The notes under the pieces: generated by a model
Seen by the model: only the letters and a program-made list of their open reading frames with translations
Told to the model about the DNA's origin: nothing
Database searches by the model: none
Translations under genes and position numbers: made by a program
DNA from: Chthoniobacter flavus
GTDB taxonomy: Bacteria > Verrucomicrobiota > Verrucomicrobiia > Chthoniobacterales > JACTMZ01
Assembly: GCA_945871065.1 (NCBI GenBank)
Contig: CAMBUL010000017.1
Location: 1-41,447 of the forward strand
Length of the DNA stretch: 41,447 nucleotides
Direction of reading: 5' to 3'
In this document: in pieces, positions 2,373 through 12,969 of the stretch
Layout: each line of letters begins with the position of its first letter
Numbering within the stretch: position 1 is the first letter of the stretch

Positions 2373-2561
2373 TCAGAATGAGGGGAGTGGGCTGGTGCGG
2401 CGCAGGGCGCTGACAATCTCGTCGACCGATTCTGCCGTTGTCTGTTCGGCGGCGCGGACCGTGACGTCGTAGGCGAGATCGTGCGCCTGATACAGTTCGT
2501 CGCTGCGGCGGAGACCATGGCGGAAAGGATTCGAGCGAGATTTTCCTCGTGAGCTGGCCAT
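2373..2561 (-). pseudogene. Truncated remnant of a chloramphenicol-phosphotransferase-like kinase
   Basis: About 45 residues here (R-R-S-D-E-L-Y-Q-A-H-D-L-A-Y-D-V-T-V-R, then E-S-V-D-E-I-V) match, with a few changes, the C-terminal segment of the broken kinase gene at 5677-6384. DNA similarity is also obvious, for example the shared GTGACGTCGTA and CAGTTCGTCGCTGCGGCG on the + strand. Upstream of this piece the reading frame loses resemblance and no P-loop is found, so only the 3' end of a second copy survives. The rest of the spacer 2354-2706 shows nothing else recognisable. Confidence 0.6.
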
Positions 2562-2706: not shown

Positions 2707-3810
2707 ATGAACTCTCTCTTCTGCTCCCCGCTGCGCTACACGCAGGGATACGACGCCACGCAATCGCTTGGGGCCGAGATGGCCGCTCTCGGGTTGTCCG
2801 GCCCAGTGCTTCTCGTGACCAGCCCATCCCCGCGCAAATTGCTCGAACCCGTCTGGGCGAAAACGCTGGGCGACGCGGGCATCGCCCATGTCATCCATGA
2901 TTTCGCGGGCGAGTGCACGAGCGCTGAGATCGCGCGCATCGTCGCGGTGGCTGGTGCCGCCGGTGCGGCCGCTGTGATCGGTGCGGGCGGCGGCAAGGTG
3001 CTCGACGCGGCGCGTGCGGCCGCCGCGGAGTTGCGCGTTCCTTTCGTCTGCTGCCCCACGGTCGCGACCACAGATTCTCCCACCTGTGCGATCTCCGTCG
3101 TCTACACGGCGGATGGTGTTTATGAAAAGACGCTCTTCCACGGGGTCAATCCAGCGCTTGTCCTTGTCGACTCGCATGTCATCTCGCGTGCGCCGGCGCG
3201 CATGCTCGTGGCCGGAATGGGCGACGCGCTCTCGACCATGTTCGAGGCGCGGGCTTGCGTGGCCGCGAAGAAACCCAACACCCGCGGCGGTGCCTGCACG
3301 ATCAGCGCCATGGCTCTGGCCGAACTCTGCTACCGTACGCTGCTGGCCGACGGCGCCGAGGCGCTCCGCGCGGCGAAAAACGGCGAAGTCAGCCCCGCGG
3401 TCGAACGCATCATCGAGGCGAACACCTTGCTCTCCGGCTTGGGCTTCGAATCTGCCGGACTGGCCGGAGCGCACGGGGTGCACAACGGTCTGACCGCCGC
3501 CCCCGGCACGCACGCATTCCTCCACGGGGAAAAAGTCGCTTTCGGCGTCCTTGTGCAACTCATGCTCGAGAAGGCCGAGCAAGCGCAAGTGGACGAGGTG
3601 CTGGGCTTCTGCTGTTCGGTGGGACTGCCCGTCACGCTGGCGCAAATCGGCTGCGCGAATCTCCCCGACGATGTCCTCGACCTGGTTGCGGCACGCGCCA
3701 CCGCGCCGGGCGAATGGACGCACAACGAACCATTCCCCGTCACCGCCCCGATGGTTGCCGCAGCCATCCGCGCCGCTGATGCCGCGGGCCACGCTTTCCT
3801 TGCGGCCTGA
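2707..3810 (+). CDS. gldA: Glycerol dehydrogenase
   Basis: The 367-residue protein belongs to the iron-containing alcohol dehydrogenase family, GldA branch, which oxidises glycerol to dihydroxyacetone with NAD+ in the cytoplasm. The NAD-binding G-A-G-G-G-K (about 97-102) and the family stretch P-T-V-A-T-T-D-S-P are present. The three metal ligands appear at Asp173 (M-G-D-A), His256 (G-A-H-G-V-H-N) and His273 (L-H-G-E-K), positions that fit known GldA enzymes. Length is normal. The start follows only 4 bp after an in-frame upstream stop. A stem-loop with a T-run follows the stop, so it looks monocistronic. A sister polyol or glycerol-1-phosphate dehydrogenase is possible but less likely. Confidence 0.88.
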   Translation: MNSLFCSPLRYTQGYDATQSLGAEMAALGLSGPVLLVTSPSPRKLLEPVWAKTLGDAGIAHVIHDFAGECTSAEIARIVAVAGAAGAAAVIGAGGGKVLDAARAAAAELRVPFVCCPTVATTDSPTCAISVVYTADGVYEKTLFHGVNPALVLVDSHVISRAPARMLVAGMGDALSTMFEARACVAAKKPNTRGGACTISAMALAELCYRTLLADGAEALRAAKNGEVSPAVERIIEANTLLSGLGFESAGLAGAHGVHNGLTAAPGTHAFLHGEKVAFGVLVQLMLEKAEQAQVDEVLGFCCSVGLPVTLAQIGCANLPDDVLDLVAARATAPGEWTHNEPFPVTAPMVAAAIRAADAAGHAFLAA

Positions 3811-5676: not shown

Positions 5677-6384
5677 CTACATCAGCAGACCGGCATCGCG
5701 CATGGCTGCGATGATCGCTTCGACCGATTCGGTCGTGCTCTGCTCGTCGGTGCGCACGGTGACGTCGTATTCGAGATCGTGAGCGTGACACAGTTCGTCG
5801 CTGCGGCGGGCGAGGCCGAGGGGCCTGCCCTCGAAGCCGCCATCGCCGCGGGAAGATTCGCGCCGCTCCAGCTCGGCCACGGAGCAGAAAACACCGACGG
5901 AGAATACGTGGGCCCCGGAATCGCGGAAAATCTCGAGGACATCCTCTTTCCATTCTCCGTCTTGCAGGAAGTGGTCGATGATAAGATTCGTCTCTAGCTC
6001 GAGATGTTTTCCCCAGCTCCGGTGCATGCCGGCCAGCAGTTTGCGGCCGTGCGGGCTGAAGACCAGGCGCAGACGGGGGCTTCCTCCGTGCGAGCCCGAC
6101 TCGTTGCTTTCATCGACGTATTCTCAGCCGGCGCGTCCGTCGTGGGGCTGGCGGGAAACCAGACGTGAGAGATCGCGGCCTTGCAGCTTCACAAAGCTGA
6201 CCGGGTAAAGTTTGTCCGACATCAAGCGACCGATGTCGTCGAAGGCGACGCGGGCGAACGCGGCGTTGGCATTGCCATCGGCGAGTTCGGTTAGCCGATC
6301 CTGCAAGCCGTGGCAGAGAGTCGACTTGCCGGAGGAACTCGGGCCGTTGACAAGGATGGCGAGGGGGGCAGTCAAGAGCTTCAC
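5677..6384 (-). pseudogene. Chloramphenicol-phosphotransferase-like P-loop kinase, interrupted by an in-frame UGA
   Basis: A GTG at 6384 starts a protein with a Walker A near the N-terminus (N-G-P-S-S-S-G-K-S-T, about 11-20) and a D-D-I-G strand. The same frame continues downstream with N-L-I-I-D-H, the conserved R-R-S-D-E-L region and Y-D-V-T-V-R. This is the layout of the CPT family, cytoplasmic kinases that phosphorylate chloramphenicol or other small molecules. One UGA (+ strand 6124-6126) cuts the frame after about 86 residues. No frameshift is needed: removing this stop restores 235 residues, a normal length. It is probably a recent loss-of-function. It lies 22 bp after the STAS-kinase gene and could have been its operon partner. 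Confidence 0.7.
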
Positions 6385-6406: not shown

Positions 6407-7561
6407 TCACGCCGCGCGGCGCGTGGCCATGATGCGCGGCAGCATGATGTCCTTGATCCAGATCTCGAGAACACCGCGAAGGTGCGGAAGGAAGGTGACC
6501 GAGTAGATGAGGCGCAGCGAGGCGAGGAAGTATTTGTTCTCCTCCCAGAACGCGCGTTCTTCGGCGCTGATGTCGGCGAAGTAGTGCTGCTCGAAGTGGT
6601 TCCAGAATTCCAGGCCCTGCTCGGTCGGGATTTTCGTGGCGAGCATGCTGAGCCCCAGTTCGGGCACGCCGTAGATCATGTAGATCAGACCGAGATCAAA
6701 GAGGTAGCTGCCGGCGGAAAAGTCTCCCATGTCGATGATGACCAGCTCGCCGTTCTGCATCATAATGTTGCTTGAGTGCAGGTCGAAATGGACGCAGGTG
6801 TCCGCATCGGGCATGGCCTCGAGCTTCTCCATGAGGTATTCGCCCTGCTCGGGCGTGAGCAGGTAACCGACGTCGCGGATGTAGCCGCGCAAGCGGTCCT
6901 TCAGGTCCGGCAGGACGTTTTTGTCGCCCTGGGCCGCGTGCAGGGTCTTGGCTGTGTCGGACAACATCTTCGCGTAGCGGTCCAGATTGGCGGTGTCCTC
7001 GCGGATCACCGCGCTGAAGAGTTCCGCGTCGAGCAGTTCGTAGACAACTCCCGAGCGCGTGCCGCAGGAGACGACGTCGTAGGAAATGGCGGTGGGCACG
7101 CCCATGACGAACGCGGCCTTGGAATATTGCTTCTCCCGCTCGGCGATCTCGGGTTCGACACCCTCGTTGTAGACTTTGACCACCGTCTCGTGGTCGAGGC
7201 GGTAGCACTCGCCGCAGACCCCGGCCGAGAGCAACTCAAGGCCCTCGAGCGAAATCTCGCGCGTCTTTTTCCCGATGGTGATCATATCGGACAGGCCGGT
7301 GAGATCGAAAACCTCGCGCACGTGAGGCGAGACATTGGTCACCACCATCTTGCCCTGCGCTTTGGCCATGGCCTGATGAGCTTTCAGCACGCTGCGGATC
7401 CCGGCGCTGGAAATGTAGTGGCATTTCGCAAAGTCGAGGACGATTTCGCGCACGCCGTCTAAGGCGAGCTTGGCATCGAGCGGCGGGGCCGTGACGGCGT
7501 CAAGGCGTCCGTCGAGTTTGACCGTGAGCTTGTCGCCGGCTGTTTCGGTGGCGATGTCCAC
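6407..7561 (-). CDS. STAS-domain / aminoglycoside-phosphotransferase-like kinase fusion
   Basis: In this 384-residue protein, residues 1-105 form a STAS domain of the anti-sigma-factor-antagonist type. Y-I-S-S-A-G-I sits at 49-55, placing Ser52 at the usual phospho-serine position. Residues about 110-384 form an APH/choline-kinase-like domain with G-E-C-Y-R plus V-V-K-V-Y (ATP lysine), the catalytic loop H-F-D-L-H-S-S-N near 258, and I-I-D-M-G-D near 276 (metal-binding Asp). This resembles the TIGR02172-type paralogous kinases. STAS domains switch partners according to Ser phosphorylation. A kinase acting on its own or another STAS domain is an inference. The start is GTG at 7561. It lies 30 bp after the secreted PAS gene, likely in one operon. 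Confidence 0.8.
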   Translation of the reverse strand: MDIATETAGDKLTVKLDGRLDAVTAPPLDAKLALDGVREIVLDFAKCHYISSAGIRSVLKAHQAMAKAQGKMVVTNVSPHVREVFDLTGLSDMITIGKKTREISLEGLELLSAGVCGECYRLDHETVVKVYNEGVEPEIAEREKQYSKAAFVMGVPTAISYDVVSCGTRSGVVYELLDAELFSAVIREDTANLDRYAKMLSDTAKTLHAAQGDKNVLPDLKDRLRGYIRDVGYLLTPEQGEYLMEKLEAMPDADTCVHFDLHSSNIMMQNGELVIIDMGDFSAGSYLFDLGLIYMIYGVPELGLSMLATKIPTEQGLEFWNHFEQHYFADISAEERAFWEENKYFLASLRLIYSVTFLPHLRGVLEIWIKDIMLPRIMATRRAA

Positions 7562-7591
7562 GTATTTCTTGGGGCTTCGCTTTGCTTTCTC

Positions 7592-8056
7592 CTAATCCTG
7601 CGCGGGTTTTTCTCCAGCGGGTGCCGCCACCTCGCGGCAGATCCCGACCACGCCCAAGACCTTGCCGTCCTCGCCGACCCAAGGTGCCTTCAAGGTGTCG
7701 GCGTAAACTTTGCGGCCGTCGGGGTAGACCAGCCATTCTTGGAATTGCCGTGGCTTTCCGCCGTCAATCGTCTTCTGGTCATCGGCGCGGTAGGCCGTGG
7801 CGAGTGCGGCCGGGAAGATCTCGGCGTCCGTTTTTCCGACCAGCTCGGCGAATGGGCGCCCGATCAAGGCGGCCCAGGCCGTATTGCCGCCGCGGTACAC
7901 GCCGGCCATGTCTTTGTAGAAGATGACGTCCGGGAGAGAATTCATCGCGGTGGTGACGATTTCGAGTTGGTCCGCCGGGCTGTCGGCGGCCGGTGACTGG
8001 TGCGGGGTGGTGGCGAGTGCCGCGGCAACTGCTGCGGCGAGGAGGGTGTTTTTCAT
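7592..8056 (-). CDS. Exported single PAS-domain protein
   Basis: This 154-residue protein has an N-terminal signal peptide (MKNTLLAAAVAAALA, Ala-rich cleavage region near 20-25). A single PAS domain follows: helix L-E-I-V-T-T-A-M-N-S-L-P-D-V-I-F-Y, D-x-x-G-V-Y-R-G-G-N, and a G-K-T-D-A-E-I-F segment. A PAC-like end comes last (G-R-K-V-Y-A-D, then G-K-V-L-G-V-V-G-I). There is no transmembrane helix after the domain and no kinase or cyclase output. It should therefore be a free periplasmic ligand or redox sensor (inference). The start is chosen for the signal peptide. The STAS-kinase gene starts 30 bp downstream. PAS domains are mostly cytosolic, so an exported solitary one is unusual. Confidence 0.72.
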   Translation of the reverse strand: MKNTLLAAAVAAALATTPHQSPAADSPADQLEIVTTAMNSLPDVIFYKDMAGVYRGGNTAWAALIGRPFAELVGKTDAEIFPAALATAYRADDQKTIDGGKPRQFQEWLVYPDGRKVYADTLKAPWVGEDGKVLGVVGICREVAAPAGEKPAQD

Positions 8057-8783: not shown

Positions 8784-10328
8784 ATGTCCGACAAAATTAT
8801 CATTTTCGACACCACGCTGCGCGACGGGGAGCAATGCCCCGGCGCTTCGATGAATTTGCGTGAGAAAATGGAGGTCGCGCGCCAACTTGAGCGGCTCAAT
8901 GTCGATGTCATCGAGGCGGGGTTTCCGGTCACCAGCGAGGGCGACTTCGAGGCGGTGCAGCGCATCGCCACGGAAGTGAGGGGACCGATCATTGCGGGAC
9001 TGGCCCGCTGTGTGACCAAGGACATCGAAGCCGCCGCCGCGGCGGTCAAGCCGGCCGGGGAACGCGGACGCATCCATGTTTTTCTCGCCACTTCGAAAAT
9101 CCACCGTGAGCATAAATTGAGGAAGGCGCACGAGGAGATTTTGCGTCTCGCCGCCGAGGGGGTGAGGCTGGCCAAGTCGCACAACAAAGATGTCGAGTTC
9201 TCGCCCGAGGACGCCTCGCGCACCGAGCCGGAATTTCTCGCCCAGGTCGTCGAAACGGTCATTGCCGCGGGTGCGACCACAGTCAATATCCCGGACACCG
9301 TCGGCTTTGCCGTGCCAGAGCAATTCGGGGCGCTGATCAAATACCTGAAGGACAATGTGCGCAATATTGACGACGCCATCATCAGCGTGCACTGCCACAA
9401 CGACCTCGGTCTGGCCGTGGCCAACTCACTGGCCGCCGTGCAGAACGGGGCGCGTCAGATCGAGGGCACGATCAACGGGATCGGCGAGCGGGCCGGCAAT
9501 GTTGCGCTGGAGGAAGTGGTCATGGCCCTGAAAACCCGGGCCGATATTTTCGGTCAGTTGCGCACCGAGGTGCATACCCGGGAAATTTTGAAAACCTCGC
9601 GCATTGTCAGCCGGATGAGCGGGCTGCACGTCCAGCGCAGCAAGGCCATCGTGGGCGAGAACGCCTTCGCCCACAGCTCGGGGATCCACCAGGACGGCAT
9701 GCTCAAGATGCGCGAGACCTATGAGATCATGAATCCGGTCGAAGTGGGTTGGGGCGGCACCGAGTTGCCCCTGACCAAGCACAGCGGACGCCACGCCATG
9801 GCCGCGCGCCTCGAGCATCTCGGGTTCAAATTGAGCGATGCGGAAATCGGCGCGGTCTTTGTCCGCTTCAAGGAAATCGGGGACAAAAAGAAATTCGTCT
9901 ATGACGATGATTTGTCGGCCTTGGTCGATGATTCGATGATGCCGCAGGACGAGGGCTGGCAGCTGCAGAAATTGGATGTTTCAGTCGCCACCGGACAGCC
10001 GCCGCGGGCCAGCGTGGTGCTCAGCCGCGACAACGAAAGCAGCGAAGGCAATGCCGACGGCAACGGCGCCGTCGATGCAGCGATGCGCGCCATCGATGCG
10101 GTGGTTGGACGCTCGGGCAATCTTCTCGAATACAACGTGCAGGCCGTCACGCAGGGGCACGATGCCCTAGGTGAAGTGACGCTGAAGGTGGATTTCGGCG
10201 ACGGACGCTTGATTACGGGCAAAGGTGCGAGCACCGACGTGATCGAGGCCAGTGCGCGTGCGTATCTGAACGCAATCAACCGCACCTTCATCCGGCGCGA
10301 GTTGGGTGAGCCGGCGCAGGGAGTTTGA
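8784..10328 (+). CDS. leuA: 2-isopropylmalate synthase
   Basis: This 514-residue enzyme condenses acetyl-CoA with 2-oxoisovalerate, the first committed step of leucine synthesis. It begins with the DRE-TIM metallolyase signature (F-D-T-T-L-R-D-G-E-Q, residues 8-17). The metal-binding H-C-H-N-D-L-G and the G-T-I-N-G-I-G-E-R-A-G-N segment follow near 205-240, and H-S-S-G-I-H-Q-D-G in the linker. The C-terminal ~120 residues form the regulatory LeuA dimer domain that binds leucine, so the full feedback-regulated form is present. No leucine attenuator peptide was seen in the 121-bp leader. It is monocistronic here; the other leu genes are not in the window. A 7-bp GGGTTGA-like tandem repeat follows at about 10329-10355. 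Confidence 0.93.
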   Translation: MSDKIIIFDTTLRDGEQCPGASMNLREKMEVARQLERLNVDVIEAGFPVTSEGDFEAVQRIATEVRGPIIAGLARCVTKDIEAAAAAVKPAGERGRIHVFLATSKIHREHKLRKAHEEILRLAAEGVRLAKSHNKDVEFSPEDASRTEPEFLAQVVETVIAAGATTVNIPDTVGFAVPEQFGALIKYLKDNVRNIDDAIISVHCHNDLGLAVANSLAAVQNGARQIEGTINGIGERAGNVALEEVVMALKTRADIFGQLRTEVHTREILKTSRIVSRMSGLHVQRSKAIVGENAFAHSSGIHQDGMLKMRETYEIMNPVEVGWGGTELPLTKHSGRHAMAARLEHLGFKLSDAEIGAVFVRFKEIGDKKKFVYDDDLSALVDDSMMPQDEGWQLQKLDVSVATGQPPRASVVLSRDNESSEGNADGNGAVDAAMRAIDAVVGRSGNLLEYNVQAVTQGHDALGEVTLKVDFGDGRLITGKGASTDVIEASARAYLNAINRTFIRRELGEPAQGV

Positions 10329-10391: not shown

Positions 10392-10763
10392 TCAGGCCAG
10401 CTTGAGCCCGTGCGCGAGGAAAAGTTGGAAGTCTTCGCGATTGCCGGTGGCCAAGGGGGCTCCGGCCACGATGGAAGTGGCGGCGATCATGGCGTCCACG
10501 CGCAGATGGCGCTTGCGGCCAGTCGCGTTGAAGAGGTGCGCTGCTTCGCGCGCTTGTTCCTCGGCAAAGGGGATCACCTCGACGAGAAAAGCGCGCACGA
10601 TTTCCTCCTGCTCCGCCGTGACCGGGCCGCAAAGGAATTCATACCACGCCGTCACCGGTGCGAGGAGGCGCTCGCCGTGCCGATACCACGCGGTGATGCG
10701 TTCGGCTTCCTCCGAGCCGGCTTCGAGGCAGCGGATGAGGTAGTTGGTGTCGAGACAGATCAC
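10392..10763 (-). CDS. vapC: VapC-type PIN-domain toxin (module 1)
   Basis: The 123-residue PIN domain has L-D-T-N near the N-terminus (Asp5), a middle Glu in the Y-E-F segment, and R-V-D-A-M-I-A-A (third acidic residue) followed by A-T-G-N-R-E-D-F. These are the acidic residues that bind Mg2+/Mn2+ in VapC RNases. Such toxins cleave tRNA or rRNA and are neutralised by a cognate antitoxin. The start is a GTG at 10763 whose last two bases begin the TGA of the upstream antitoxin gene (GTGA overlap). This coupling is typical of toxin-antitoxin pairs. It is convergent with leuA. Confidence 0.85.
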   Translation of the reverse strand: MICLDTNYLIRCLEAGSEEAERITAWYRHGERLLAPVTAWYEFLCGPVTAEQEEIVRAFLVEVIPFAEEQAREAAHLFNATGRKRHLRVDAMIAATSIVAGAPLATGNREDFQLFLAHGLKLA

Positions 10764-11023
10764 GAGGAGGCGCGCCAGTTTTGGCGATCCTCGTAGGTCT
10801 CGGCCATCCAGCGATCGGCCTGCGCCTTGCCGATTCCGCCGCCCTTGGCGTGCAGTTCGCGCAGCAGGGACACCGGATCGCGCTTCGCCGACTGCACCGT
10901 CTGCTCGGAGCGCTCGACGGAACGCCGGACGACCTCGGCTTGGGACACATTCCAGAGCTTGGCCAAGTGCCTGAGACGACGGGCCGTGGCTGCATCCAAG
11001 GCGAAGGTGGTGCGATGAGTCAT
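10760..11023 (-). CDS. Ribbon-helix-helix antitoxin of module 1
   Basis: In this 87-residue protein, an N-terminal strand (T-T-F-A-L-D) and two helices (T-A-R-R-L-R-H-L-A and S-Q-A-E-V-V-R-R-S-V) fit an RHH/CopG-like DNA-binding fold. A longer, charged toxin-binding tail follows and ends W-M-A-E-T-Y-E-D-R. It should bind the PIN toxin and repress its own promoter. The ATG at 11023 is chosen for its fit to the RHH start; an ATG 9 bp upstream is possible. Direct repeats CATACCAT lie just upstream and may be its operator. The stop overlaps the toxin GTG. Confidence 0.8.
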   Translation of the reverse strand: MTHRTTFALDAATARRLRHLAKLWNVSQAEVVRRSVERSEQTVQSAKRDPVSLLRELHAKGGGIGKAQADRWMAETYEDRQNWRASS

Positions 11024-11029
11024 GGTTGG

Positions 11030-11050
11030 CATACCATTACTACATACCAT
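11030..11050 (-). promoter_or_regulatory. Direct-repeat candidate operator of toxin-antitoxin module 1
   Basis: CATACCAT occurs at 11030-11037 and again at 11043-11050, 13 bp apart, just before the antitoxin start. Paired direct repeats near the promoter are usual operators for ribbon-helix-helix antitoxins. Function is inferred from place and symmetry only. Confidence 0.4.
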
Positions 11051-11300
11051 CGCATTGCCTCTTTCGCAAGATTGCGAGGATGGTGGTCAATTACTGTCTG
11101 GAGGGGATGGTTAGCCTAGTAGGAGAAGAGTTTTCAGTGTTCGGTGTTCGGTTTTCGTCTCGCAAGTCCGGTTGCCGCTCCCATCCCCGAACCGGGCACC
11201 TGGGCTGCGATGGCCATTTTTGCGGGGGGGGTGCGGCTTACGCGGGCTGGCGCCGGCGGGGGCGTGCTTGAGTAAGCGGACTGCCTCGGCGCCGGATCGC

Positions 11301-11699
11301 TCAGTAACTTTCCAACCGGATTCCTTCGATGCGGGCAAATTGCGCGGTGTTGCGCGTGACCAGGGGAAGGCCGAATTGCAGCGCGGTGGCTGCGATCCAC
11401 AAGTCGTGGGGCCCAGGCAAGGAGTTGGTGGCGCGCAAACGGGCGAACTGCGAGGCGTAGATGTCGAGCGTTGTGTTGTCCGGCCAGATCGCGGGAAAGC
11501 GGTCGAGGAAGGCGCGCACCGCGCCGGGTTGATGGCCGGCCACCGCCGCACCGCGGAGGAATTCACCTTTGACGATCCAGGGCAGACCGACGGCGAGGTC
11601 CGCATTGTCGCGCAACCATTGAGCCGCCGGAGAATTCCGGCCTTCGCGCCAACGCGAAATCAGGAAGTTGGTGTCGAGGAGGCGGTCGACCGCGATCAT
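11301..11699 (-). CDS. vapC: VapC-type PIN-domain toxin (module 2)
   Basis: The 132-residue PIN protein has L-L-D-T-N-F-L-I at 7-14, a mid-protein K-G-E-F with Glu, and P-H-D-L-W-I-A-A-T-A near 99-108. A final T-R-N-T-A-Q-F-A-R segment completes the VapC/FitB-like pattern. It is a predicted Mg2+-dependent RNase. It differs clearly from the module 1 toxin, so this is not a tandem duplication. The ATG at 11699 overlaps the antitoxin stop by 4 bp (ATGA). The 277-bp space between module 2 and module 1 has only G-rich, low-information sequence. Confidence 0.84.
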   Translation of the reverse strand: MIAVDRLLDTNFLISRWREGRNSPAAQWLRDNADLAVGLPWIVKGEFLRGAAVAGHQPGAVRAFLDRFPAIWPDNTTLDIYASQFARLRATNSLPGPHDLWIAATALQFGLPLVTRNTAQFARIEGIRLESY

Positions 11700-11959
11700 G
11701 GGGCGCCTTCGTTGACCGAGGGTGTGGCCCACGGATCGGGACAGCTTCGCCAGTCATTGGCCCATCCGGCTTCCGCTTCGATGACCTCCGCTTGGCGGCC
11801 GGTCAATTTGGGTAGCTGATCAAAAGCCTCGTCCATGTCCTCCGCCGTGCCCCTCTTCGGCACGGCCTTCAACACCACCTTGGAGAAGGACTCCGAGGAA
11901 TCCGTTTTCCAGGATTTCAGCCGCTGATAGGCCTCCTCCGACAGAGTAATCGTCTTCAT
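11696..11959 (-). CDS. vapB: VapB-type antitoxin of module 2 (COG1753-like)
   Basis: This 87-residue protein starts M-K-T-I-T-L-S-E-E-A-Y-Q-R-L-K-S-W-K, the characteristic opening of the COG1753/DUF217 VapB-like antitoxins (a beta strand, then helix). S-E-S-F-S-K-V-V follows, where the second DNA-binding helix lies. The acidic C-terminal half would wrap the toxin. It probably autoregulates. An inverted repeat, TTCATGCA with TGCATGAA, covers the start region and may be the operator. It is cotranscribed with the PIN gene through a 4-bp overlap and lies 44 bp from the end of the methyltransferase gene. Confidence 0.78.
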   Translation of the reverse strand: MKTITLSEEAYQRLKSWKTDSSESFSKVVLKAVPKRGTAEDMDEAFDQLPKLTGRQAEVIEAEAGWANDWRSCPDPWATPSVNEGAP

Positions 11960-11985
11960 GCATGCATGATACACGAGTGCATGAA
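11955..11985 (-). promoter_or_regulatory. Inverted-repeat candidate operator of toxin-antitoxin module 2
   Basis: TTCATGCA (11955-11962) and TGCATGAA (11978-11985) form an 8-bp perfect inverted repeat spanning the antitoxin start and its immediate upstream DNA, next to a CATGCATGCATG run. This position suits antitoxin autorepression, but there is no proof from sequence alone. Confidence 0.4.
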
Positions 11986-12003
11986 CCAGATCAAGTTGTC
12001 TGC

Positions 12004-12969
12004 TCAACCTTTGGCCAAAGCCAGGCAATGGAACGCCTCTGCTCCGGGTGCGTTCGGAGCGATGGCGGCGAGCGATTTGATTCCGTCAGCTTCCCATCCA
12101 AACTCCCGCGCCCAAATCGCCAGATCGTCGAAATTCACATCGGAGGTGATGTCTTGGCGTCCGGACATTTCGTAGACCGCGTCGCCGGCCAGGCGTTGTT
12201 GGCCGCGGTAAGCGCGCAGAGTTCCGGCCGGGCGGCGCTGGTAGATCTGATCAGCGCTGCCGCCGTAGTCCACGACCAGCATTGCTCCCTGCTTCCATGA
12301 CCCCGCCATGTCGCGCATCCAATTGCGGACCGACTCGAAGGCTTCCACTCTTTGGCCCGTGGTCCATTCGCGCGCAAAAACGGTTGAAGCGGGCAGGGGA
12401 CGCGTGGGCGGGAGAAAAACTTCCTGCAGTTTTCCCTCGATCACTTTGAGATACAGTTCGGTCCATCCGTCGTTTTCTTTGCGGAACACGCGGCAGGGAA
12501 AAGCATCGAAAAACTCGTTGTGATAAACCAGCGCGCGGCCTTCGCCCGCGGCCAGCGCCTCTTCGATCGTCGAATGCCATGTGCCGCGCCCGCGTTTCTG
12601 CTGCTCTGCGCGCAATGGCTCGGACGTCTCCACCAAATGCAGATCGACCTTCCGCTTCCCGAACCATCCGAAGCTTTTCATCACCGCTGAAGCCAAGGCG
12701 CCGGAACCCGGACCGCATTCGATCACGTTGAACCGCTTCCAACCCCGCTGCTCGGCTTTCCCTTGCAGCCACTGTCCAATCGCCTCGCCCAGCGCCGGGG
12801 TCAGTTGCGGAACCGTGGTGAAATCCCCGCGGCTGCCGATGCCGCGGATATTCCGCGCGTAATAACCGTCCTGCGGATGGTGCAGGGCGATTCCCATGAA
12901 GGTGTCGAACGGAATCGTCCCGCCGTTTTCATCGAGCGCAGATTGCAAAGCTTGGCGGACGGTGGACAT
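12004..12969 (-). CDS. MidA-family class I SAM-dependent methyltransferase (COG1565)
   Basis: The 321-residue protein shows the COG1565/NDUFAF7 layout: an N-terminal F-M-x-x-A-L-H-H-P-x-x-G-Y-Y and a D-F-T-T-V-P-Q-L-T-P segment. The SAM-binding E-C-G-P-G-S-G comes next, then Y-H-N-E-F-F-D-A-F-P and V-V-D-Y-G-G. The eukaryotic homologue methylates an arginine of a complex I subunit. Bacterial targets are unproven, so I give no symbol. The ATG at 12969 is the only start that matches the family N-terminus; the frame continues open upstream across hrpB but that is antisense noise. It is divergent from hrpB with 18 bp between start codons. Confidence 0.85.
   Translation of the reverse strand: MSTVRQALQSALDENGGTIPFDTFMGIALHHPQDGYYARNIRGIGSRGDFTTVPQLTPALGEAIGQWLQGKAEQRGWKRFNVIECGPGSGALASAVMKSFGWFGKRKVDLHLVETSEPLRAEQQKRGRGTWHSTIEEALAAGEGRALVYHNEFFDAFPCRVFRKENDGWTELYLKVIEGKLQEVFLPPTRPLPASTVFAREWTTGQRVEAFESVRNWMRDMAGSWKQGAMLVVDYGGSADQIYQRRPAGTLRAYRGQQRLAGDAVYEMSGRQDITSDVNFDDLAIWAREFGWEADGIKSLAAIAPNAPGAEAFHCLALAKG

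Follow-up and report, generated by a model that had tools for sequence, protein, structure and literature searches.

A recurrent STAS-kinase fusion as a candidate enzyme under partner-switching control, with an exported PAS neighbour in Chthoniobacterales

The window, the whole stretch of 41,447 nucleotides from Chthoniobacter flavus analysed here, encodes a protein in which a STAS domain and an APH-fold kinase share one covalent chain (Table 1). This STAS-kinase fusion is a genuine, recurrent and widespread family, and it is probably an enzyme under a partner switch rather than a switch complete in itself. We give about an even chance to the specific form of this reading, in which the fusion is gated by a partner-switching module of the Rsb/SpoIIA type and the APH-type kinase is its enzymatic output.

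Table 1 Features of the PAS and STAS-kinase locus in the window
Feature	Position	Strand	Basis or remark
CPT-like P-loop kinase, third gene of the unit in relatives	5686..6369	(-)	interrupted in the window by TGA at 6124-6126
STAS and APH-type kinase fusion, 384 aa, GTG start at 7561	6407..7561	(-)	no signal peptide or membrane segment evident
APH-fold kinase domain, TIGR02172-like	6581..7252	(-)	profile matches and fold comparison
Mg-binding Asp277 (IIDMGD)	6731..6733	(-)	invariant in 40/40 proteins
Catalytic loop HFDLHSSN (H258-N265)	6767..6790	(-)	D260 and N265 invariant in 40/40 proteins
STAS domain, residues 3-101	7259..7555	(-)	PF01740 E 1.9e-14; TIGR00377 above cut-off
Ser52 codon, position taken as that of SpoIIAA phospho-Ser58	7406..7408	(-)	Ser51-Ser52 invariant in 37/37 STAS-kinase fusions
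30-bp gap from PAS stop to fusion GTG	7562..7591	(-)	coordinates
PAS gene, 154 aa	7592..8056	(-)	ATG at 8056, stop 7592-7594; predicted exported, no output domain
PAS_4 domain	7625..7942	(-)	Pfam PF08448 E 2.7e-21
Sec-type signal peptide, predicted, about residues 1-24	7985..8056	(-)	sequence pattern and hydropathy

The original prediction for this locus described an exported PAS domain without output, then 30 bp, then a STAS-APH kinase fusion with Ser52 in the phospho-acceptor position and the kinase motifs HFDLHSSN and IIDMGD, and read the arrangement as a self-contained phospho-switch that might take a periplasmic signal from the PAS protein. The architecture and the residues were confirmed on the minus strand, and a genome search found the gene pair in five Chthoniobacterales genomes. 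Because the pair, the phospho-acceptor Ser and the catalytic residues are all conserved, nothing at the level of sequence overturned the prediction; the interpretation fared less well, with both self-containment and input through the PAS protein losing ground on the evidence below.

The STAS domain exceeds both curated cut-offs that we applied (53.7 bits against 22.6 for PF01740; 61.1 against 53.45 for TIGR00377) and has a Ser at the phospho-acceptor position. By motif position we take Ser52 to be the counterpart of SpoIIAA Ser58, setting D57-S58-S59-G60 of SpoIIAA against S51-S52-A53-G54 of the window protein; on this alignment the Asp that precedes the phospho-Ser is therefore replaced by Ser in the fusion. 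A conserved phospho-acceptor Ser in the STAS domain is common to the fusion and to the RsbU-RsbV-RsbW, SpoIIE-SpoIIAA-SpoIIAB (B. subtilis), SypE-SypA and BtrU-BtrV-BtrW systems (PMC8256260), and relatives of the fusion likewise have an RsbW-type kinase and a SpoIIE phosphatase beside or fused to them. Unlike those modules, the fusion carries its STAS domain on the same chain as an APH-fold kinase, has no evident sigma factor or anti-sigma target and, in the window lineage, is encoded apart from its regulators.

The kinase domain matches the APH family over residues 121-300 (PF01636, E 4.3e-10; 40.2 bits against a cut-off of 23.2) and has the family's beta3 Lys (K129), HxDxxxxN motif (D260, N265) and second metal-binding Asp (D277). 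The full model of TIGR02172, a Fibrobacter succinogenes paralogous family, also aligns (residues 104-327, E 2.7e-36), but the window kinase is not a member as curated because its score of 125.5 falls below the cut-off of 228.2; the family as defined lacks a STAS domain, whereas the window fusion has one. K129, E143, H258, D260, H262, N265 and D277 are all present and conserved in the window kinase; K129, D260, N265 and D277 are invariant across 37 STAS-kinase fusions and three HD-kinase proteins, and E143 is kept in 39 of these 40. With the full catalytic set in place, a degenerate kinase was rejected. Pfam finds in the window fusion protein no HATPase_c_2 domain, the mark of HPK-type SpoIIAB/RsbW kinases. 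AlphaFold models the full-length fusion with a mean pLDDT of 90.8 (pTM 0.77) and the kinase alone with 93.2 (pTM 0.91), and the nearest folds and sequence relatives of the kinase are small-molecule kinases, namely APH(3')/aminoglycoside, hygromycin-B, choline/ethanolamine and methylthioribose kinases.

By genome scan, the fusion occurs in Chthoniobacterales, Pirellula-type Planctomycetota, Stella (Alphaproteobacteria), Clostridia and Coriobacteriaceae. It is carried by five of 97 genomes of near relatives, by two of 247 in a planctomycete order and by three of four in the Stella family. At a stricter cut-off, 3/388 genomes of a phylum sample matched, among them an HD-kinase protein with a degenerate STAS domain (G276). 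In one Clostridia class 19 of 291 genomes (about 6%) matched, two of them (G602 and G626) with HD-kinase proteins and not STAS fusions. In that class, kinase homologues scoring at least 93 bits against TIGR02172 occur, with few exceptions, within long frames corresponding to fused proteins; lower scores belong to the shorter homologues that stand alone. In the tree, the window, planctomycete, Stella and G385 proteins group together as a single clade (100/99), here called group I. No match to the fusion was found in plasmid or phage records, and an origin in a mobile element or phage was rejected. No paper on a STAS-APH kinase architecture turned up in the literature searched, which left out most subscription journals.

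The case for a partner switch comes from the clostridial and coriobacterial loci, where a SpoIIE phosphatase, an RsbW-type HATPase_c_2 protein (often SpoIIE-fused), a lone STAS protein and an HD_4 protein recur. With genomes drawn evenly, SpoIIE and/or RsbW-type domains are fused to the STAS-kinase or lie within about 6 kb of it at 9 of 18 clostridial loci, spread over about four separate branches of the tree; with 1-2% as the approximate expectation, this gives a binomial tail of <1e-10 (computed for 9/17). L018, L021, L022, L024 and L025 repeat the pattern. In five genomes (L071, L072, L075, L076, L077) STAS, kinase and HATPase_c_2 form a single chain, the HATPase making up the C-terminal part (Pfam E 5e-22 to 1e-20); these chains are one clade, and a SpoIIE gene and/or a lone STAS gene lies alongside. 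We set aside as evidence that 19/19 match-bearing genomes also have an RsbW-type kinase, against 237/272 others (Fisher p 0.14); such co-occurrence across whole genomes is uninformative because 256 of 291 genomes (88%) of the Clostridia class have such a kinase.

A second line of evidence concerns the kinase itself. In L088 and L089 an HD domain takes the place of STAS and is fused to a kinase that keeps all its catalytic residues, and in the verrucomicrobial L046 one chain joins HD, a degenerate STAS domain lacking the Ser and the kinase, followed by an RsbW-type gene. Since HD-kinase proteins without STAS keep every catalytic residue, the kinase should have a substrate other than its own STAS domain. 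These findings weigh against the self-contained phospho-switch of the original prediction, in which the APH-type kinase would phosphorylate Ser52 of its own STAS domain and the STAS domain would then bind a partner. Ser52 and the catalytic residues are co-conserved in one chain, and group I fusions have no adjacent RsbW genes, as such a switch would have it; but relatives add an RsbW-type kinase to the chain as its third domain, which would then be redundant, the APH-type kinase persists without STAS or beside a Ser-less one, and its nearest folds are small-molecule kinases. We therefore consider autonomous switching improbable.

Alternatively, the STAS domain could be a protein-binding or docking module without phospho-switching, attached to a kinase that acts constitutively on a small molecule. 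The missing Asp before the phospho-Ser fits this proposal, and STAS domains of other multidomain proteins act as binding or anchoring modules (PMC8256260). However, Ser51-Ser52 is invariant across fusions from several phyla, in a domain whose other positions mostly vary, and SpoIIE phosphatases recur beside the fusion gene; simple docking is thus a doubtful, although not negligible, account.

Because RsbW and SpoIIE domains are linked or fused to the STAS-kinases of relatives and the kinase survives without STAS, we read the STAS domain as the input that they address and the APH-type kinase as the output. In the mechanism that we propose for an enzyme gated by a partner switch, an RsbW-type HATPase kinase would bind the STAS domain and phosphorylate Ser52, and a SpoIIE-type phosphatase would strip the phosphate off again. 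The phospho-state of the STAS domain, or its occupancy by a partner, would switch the attached kinase on or off, and the kinase would phosphorylate a substrate other than the STAS domain, in all likelihood a small molecule. We infer the direction of control, the phosphorylation of Ser52, the gating by STAS and the substrate. The Ser in place of the Asp counts against the proposal, as does the lack of adjacent RsbW/SpoIIE genes in group I, the loose case of G385 apart.

For group I, the link to a partner switch comes from homology to the clostridial relatives, and the window-lineage fusion is an orphan, encoded apart from its regulators. No RsbW-type kinase or SpoIIE phosphatase is encoded next to the window fusion; the only strong RsbW-type kinase of its own genome (G000) and the three SpoIIE phosphatases of that genome, encoded on C42, C34 and C100, are on other contigs. 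That kinase (C42:8181-8594) sits in an apparent operon whose other products are a REC-SpoIIE and a STAS protein, and might act on the window fusion in trans. The wider region (G000:C42:2776-9883, L031) encodes a hybrid sensor kinase, the REC-SpoIIE, the RsbW-type kinase, a 442-aa STAS protein and two divergent STAS genes; a similar STAS protein of 408 aa (L032) is encoded among ABC-transporter genes. Group I fusions from outside Chthoniobacterales lack PAS and CPT, and RsbW/SpoIIE genes do not adjoin them, except that in G385 a REC-SpoIIE and a STAS gene lie about 4 kb upstream of the fusion in a loose neighbourhood. The gene order there (G385:C61; L103, L044) begins with the chemosensory genes MCP, CheW, CheR and CheB and runs on through REC-SpoIIE, a STAS protein of 764 aa and an aldehyde dehydrogenase to the STAS-kinase.

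More broadly, the partner switches known so far mostly regulate sigma factors, along with a few other protein targets. In a rather unlikely extension of our proposal, these proteins would belong to a hitherto undescribed class of partner-switching modules that act through a metabolite kinase, and in Firmicutes and in an Akkermansia-like genome this kinase would have a SAH/MESH1-type hydrolase as its counterpart. An Rsb-type phospho-switch would then control directly how much of a nucleotide, or of another phosphorylated small signal, is present, rather than release a sigma factor; the window fusion would be a Gram-negative orphan branch. Clostridial fusions adjoin an HD (HD_4) protein and some of the kinases are HD-fused; these HD proteins match structures of MESH1 and the small alarmone hydrolases (SAH) and have the hydrolase residues H, HD, ED, D and N intact, with ppGpp as a candidate substrate. 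By contrast, MESH1-like HD proteins are absent from the window lineage. A STAS-kinase enzyme, which some genomes encode on the same chain as its RsbW-type kinase, would be a switch that delivers a catalysed reaction, one that can be assayed in vitro. The alarmone-hydrolase-like protein beside it opens a direct way to test whether stress switching is linked to small-molecule signalling. Interest would rise should kinase and hydrolase prove to act on one small molecule. In the Akkermansia-like genome, the gene for the HD-(degenerate STAS)-kinase and its RsbW-type neighbour (L046; G276:C20:10000-21000) lie between guaA and guaB/purH-like genes, surroundings hinting at guanine nucleotide metabolism.

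The PAS protein consists of a single PAS_4 domain, with no further domain by Pfam. Its N-terminus, MKNTLLAAAVAAALATTPHQSPAA followed by DS, has the form of a putative Sec signal peptide; the same leader occurs in L009-L012 and L101, and the PAS protein of G001 (L095/L102) has one unrelated in sequence but of the same form, MKITPILTASLSVLLLFGPRPAAAAED. Sequence pattern, hydropathy and this second leader thus agree on an N-terminal signal peptide ahead of a PAS domain, as in an exported PAS sensor. The ATG at 8056 is taken as the start because L009 has in-frame stops directly upstream of it, and a longer GTG frame reaching 8383 was rejected. The protein shares the PAS fold and the FYKD...GxYxGGN and YPDGR motifs with the ArcB-type PAS (PAS_4 PF08448; NF008302 region 155-267), but it is predicted to be exported and has one domain, without kinase or other output. 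PAS and fusion are both under purifying selection in Chthoniobacterales, since dN/dS is low (about 0.13-0.29 and 0.09-0.32, respectively). For the same genome pairs, dS of PAS (7592-8056) and fusion (6407-7561) is lower than that of leuA (8784-10328), a difference to which recombination or antisense constraint may contribute.

Could PAS and fusion form one signalling system, in which the exported PAS protein detects a ligand in the periplasm and this ligand governs the fusion in the cytosol? The two genes are adjacent and co-oriented at all five Chthoniobacterales loci, which represent two families, separated by 30 bp in the window and L009, 26 bp in L011 and about 220 bp in L010 and overlapping by ATGA in L012; we infer that they are co-transcribed in the window. 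Of 11 genomes of the window's genus, six have PAS, and four of these six have the fusion too; it never occurs without PAS (4/4; Fisher p 0.06). Against a common system, however, in G001 and G006 PAS occupies the same site, between leuA and AAA, with no fusion there and none found elsewhere in the two genomes; no PAS gene was found beside the fusion in any lineage other than Chthoniobacterales; and no membrane-spanning link between the exported PAS protein and the cytosolic fusion was found encoded nearby. We regard the PAS protein as very unlikely to be the input of the fusion; we read it as a functionally separable neighbour.

The simplest form of the site, leuA(-), PAS(+), AAA(+), is that of G006 (L101) and G001 (L102). 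L010 and L011 have the fusion and a CPT-like P-loop kinase between PAS and AAA, and L012, from another family, has the order PAS-fusion-CPT; L009 has no CPT gene, and in the window the AAA gene is further off (896-270). Gain of fusion and CPT next to a resident PAS gene and their joint loss both fit. The CPT-like gene is intact in L010, L011 (PF07931 3.4e-22) and L012, and its substitution rates show purifying selection; where the window has the TGA, the relatives have Trp, and the reading frame on either side is otherwise preserved. The window has a further piece of a CPT-like gene, a C-terminal one (2373-2561, minus strand), beside a glycerol-dehydrogenase-like gene (2707-3810, plus strand). 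The latter, about 3 kb from the window fusion, is 59% identical to a gene near the fusion in a Pirellula MAG (L014 3601-4731, minus strand), a coincidence that may reflect either chance or co-transfer. Elsewhere in the window, 10392-11732 (minus strand) holds two small PIN-type toxin-like ORFs, each with an antitoxin-like ORF upstream (10760-11050 and 11696-12028).
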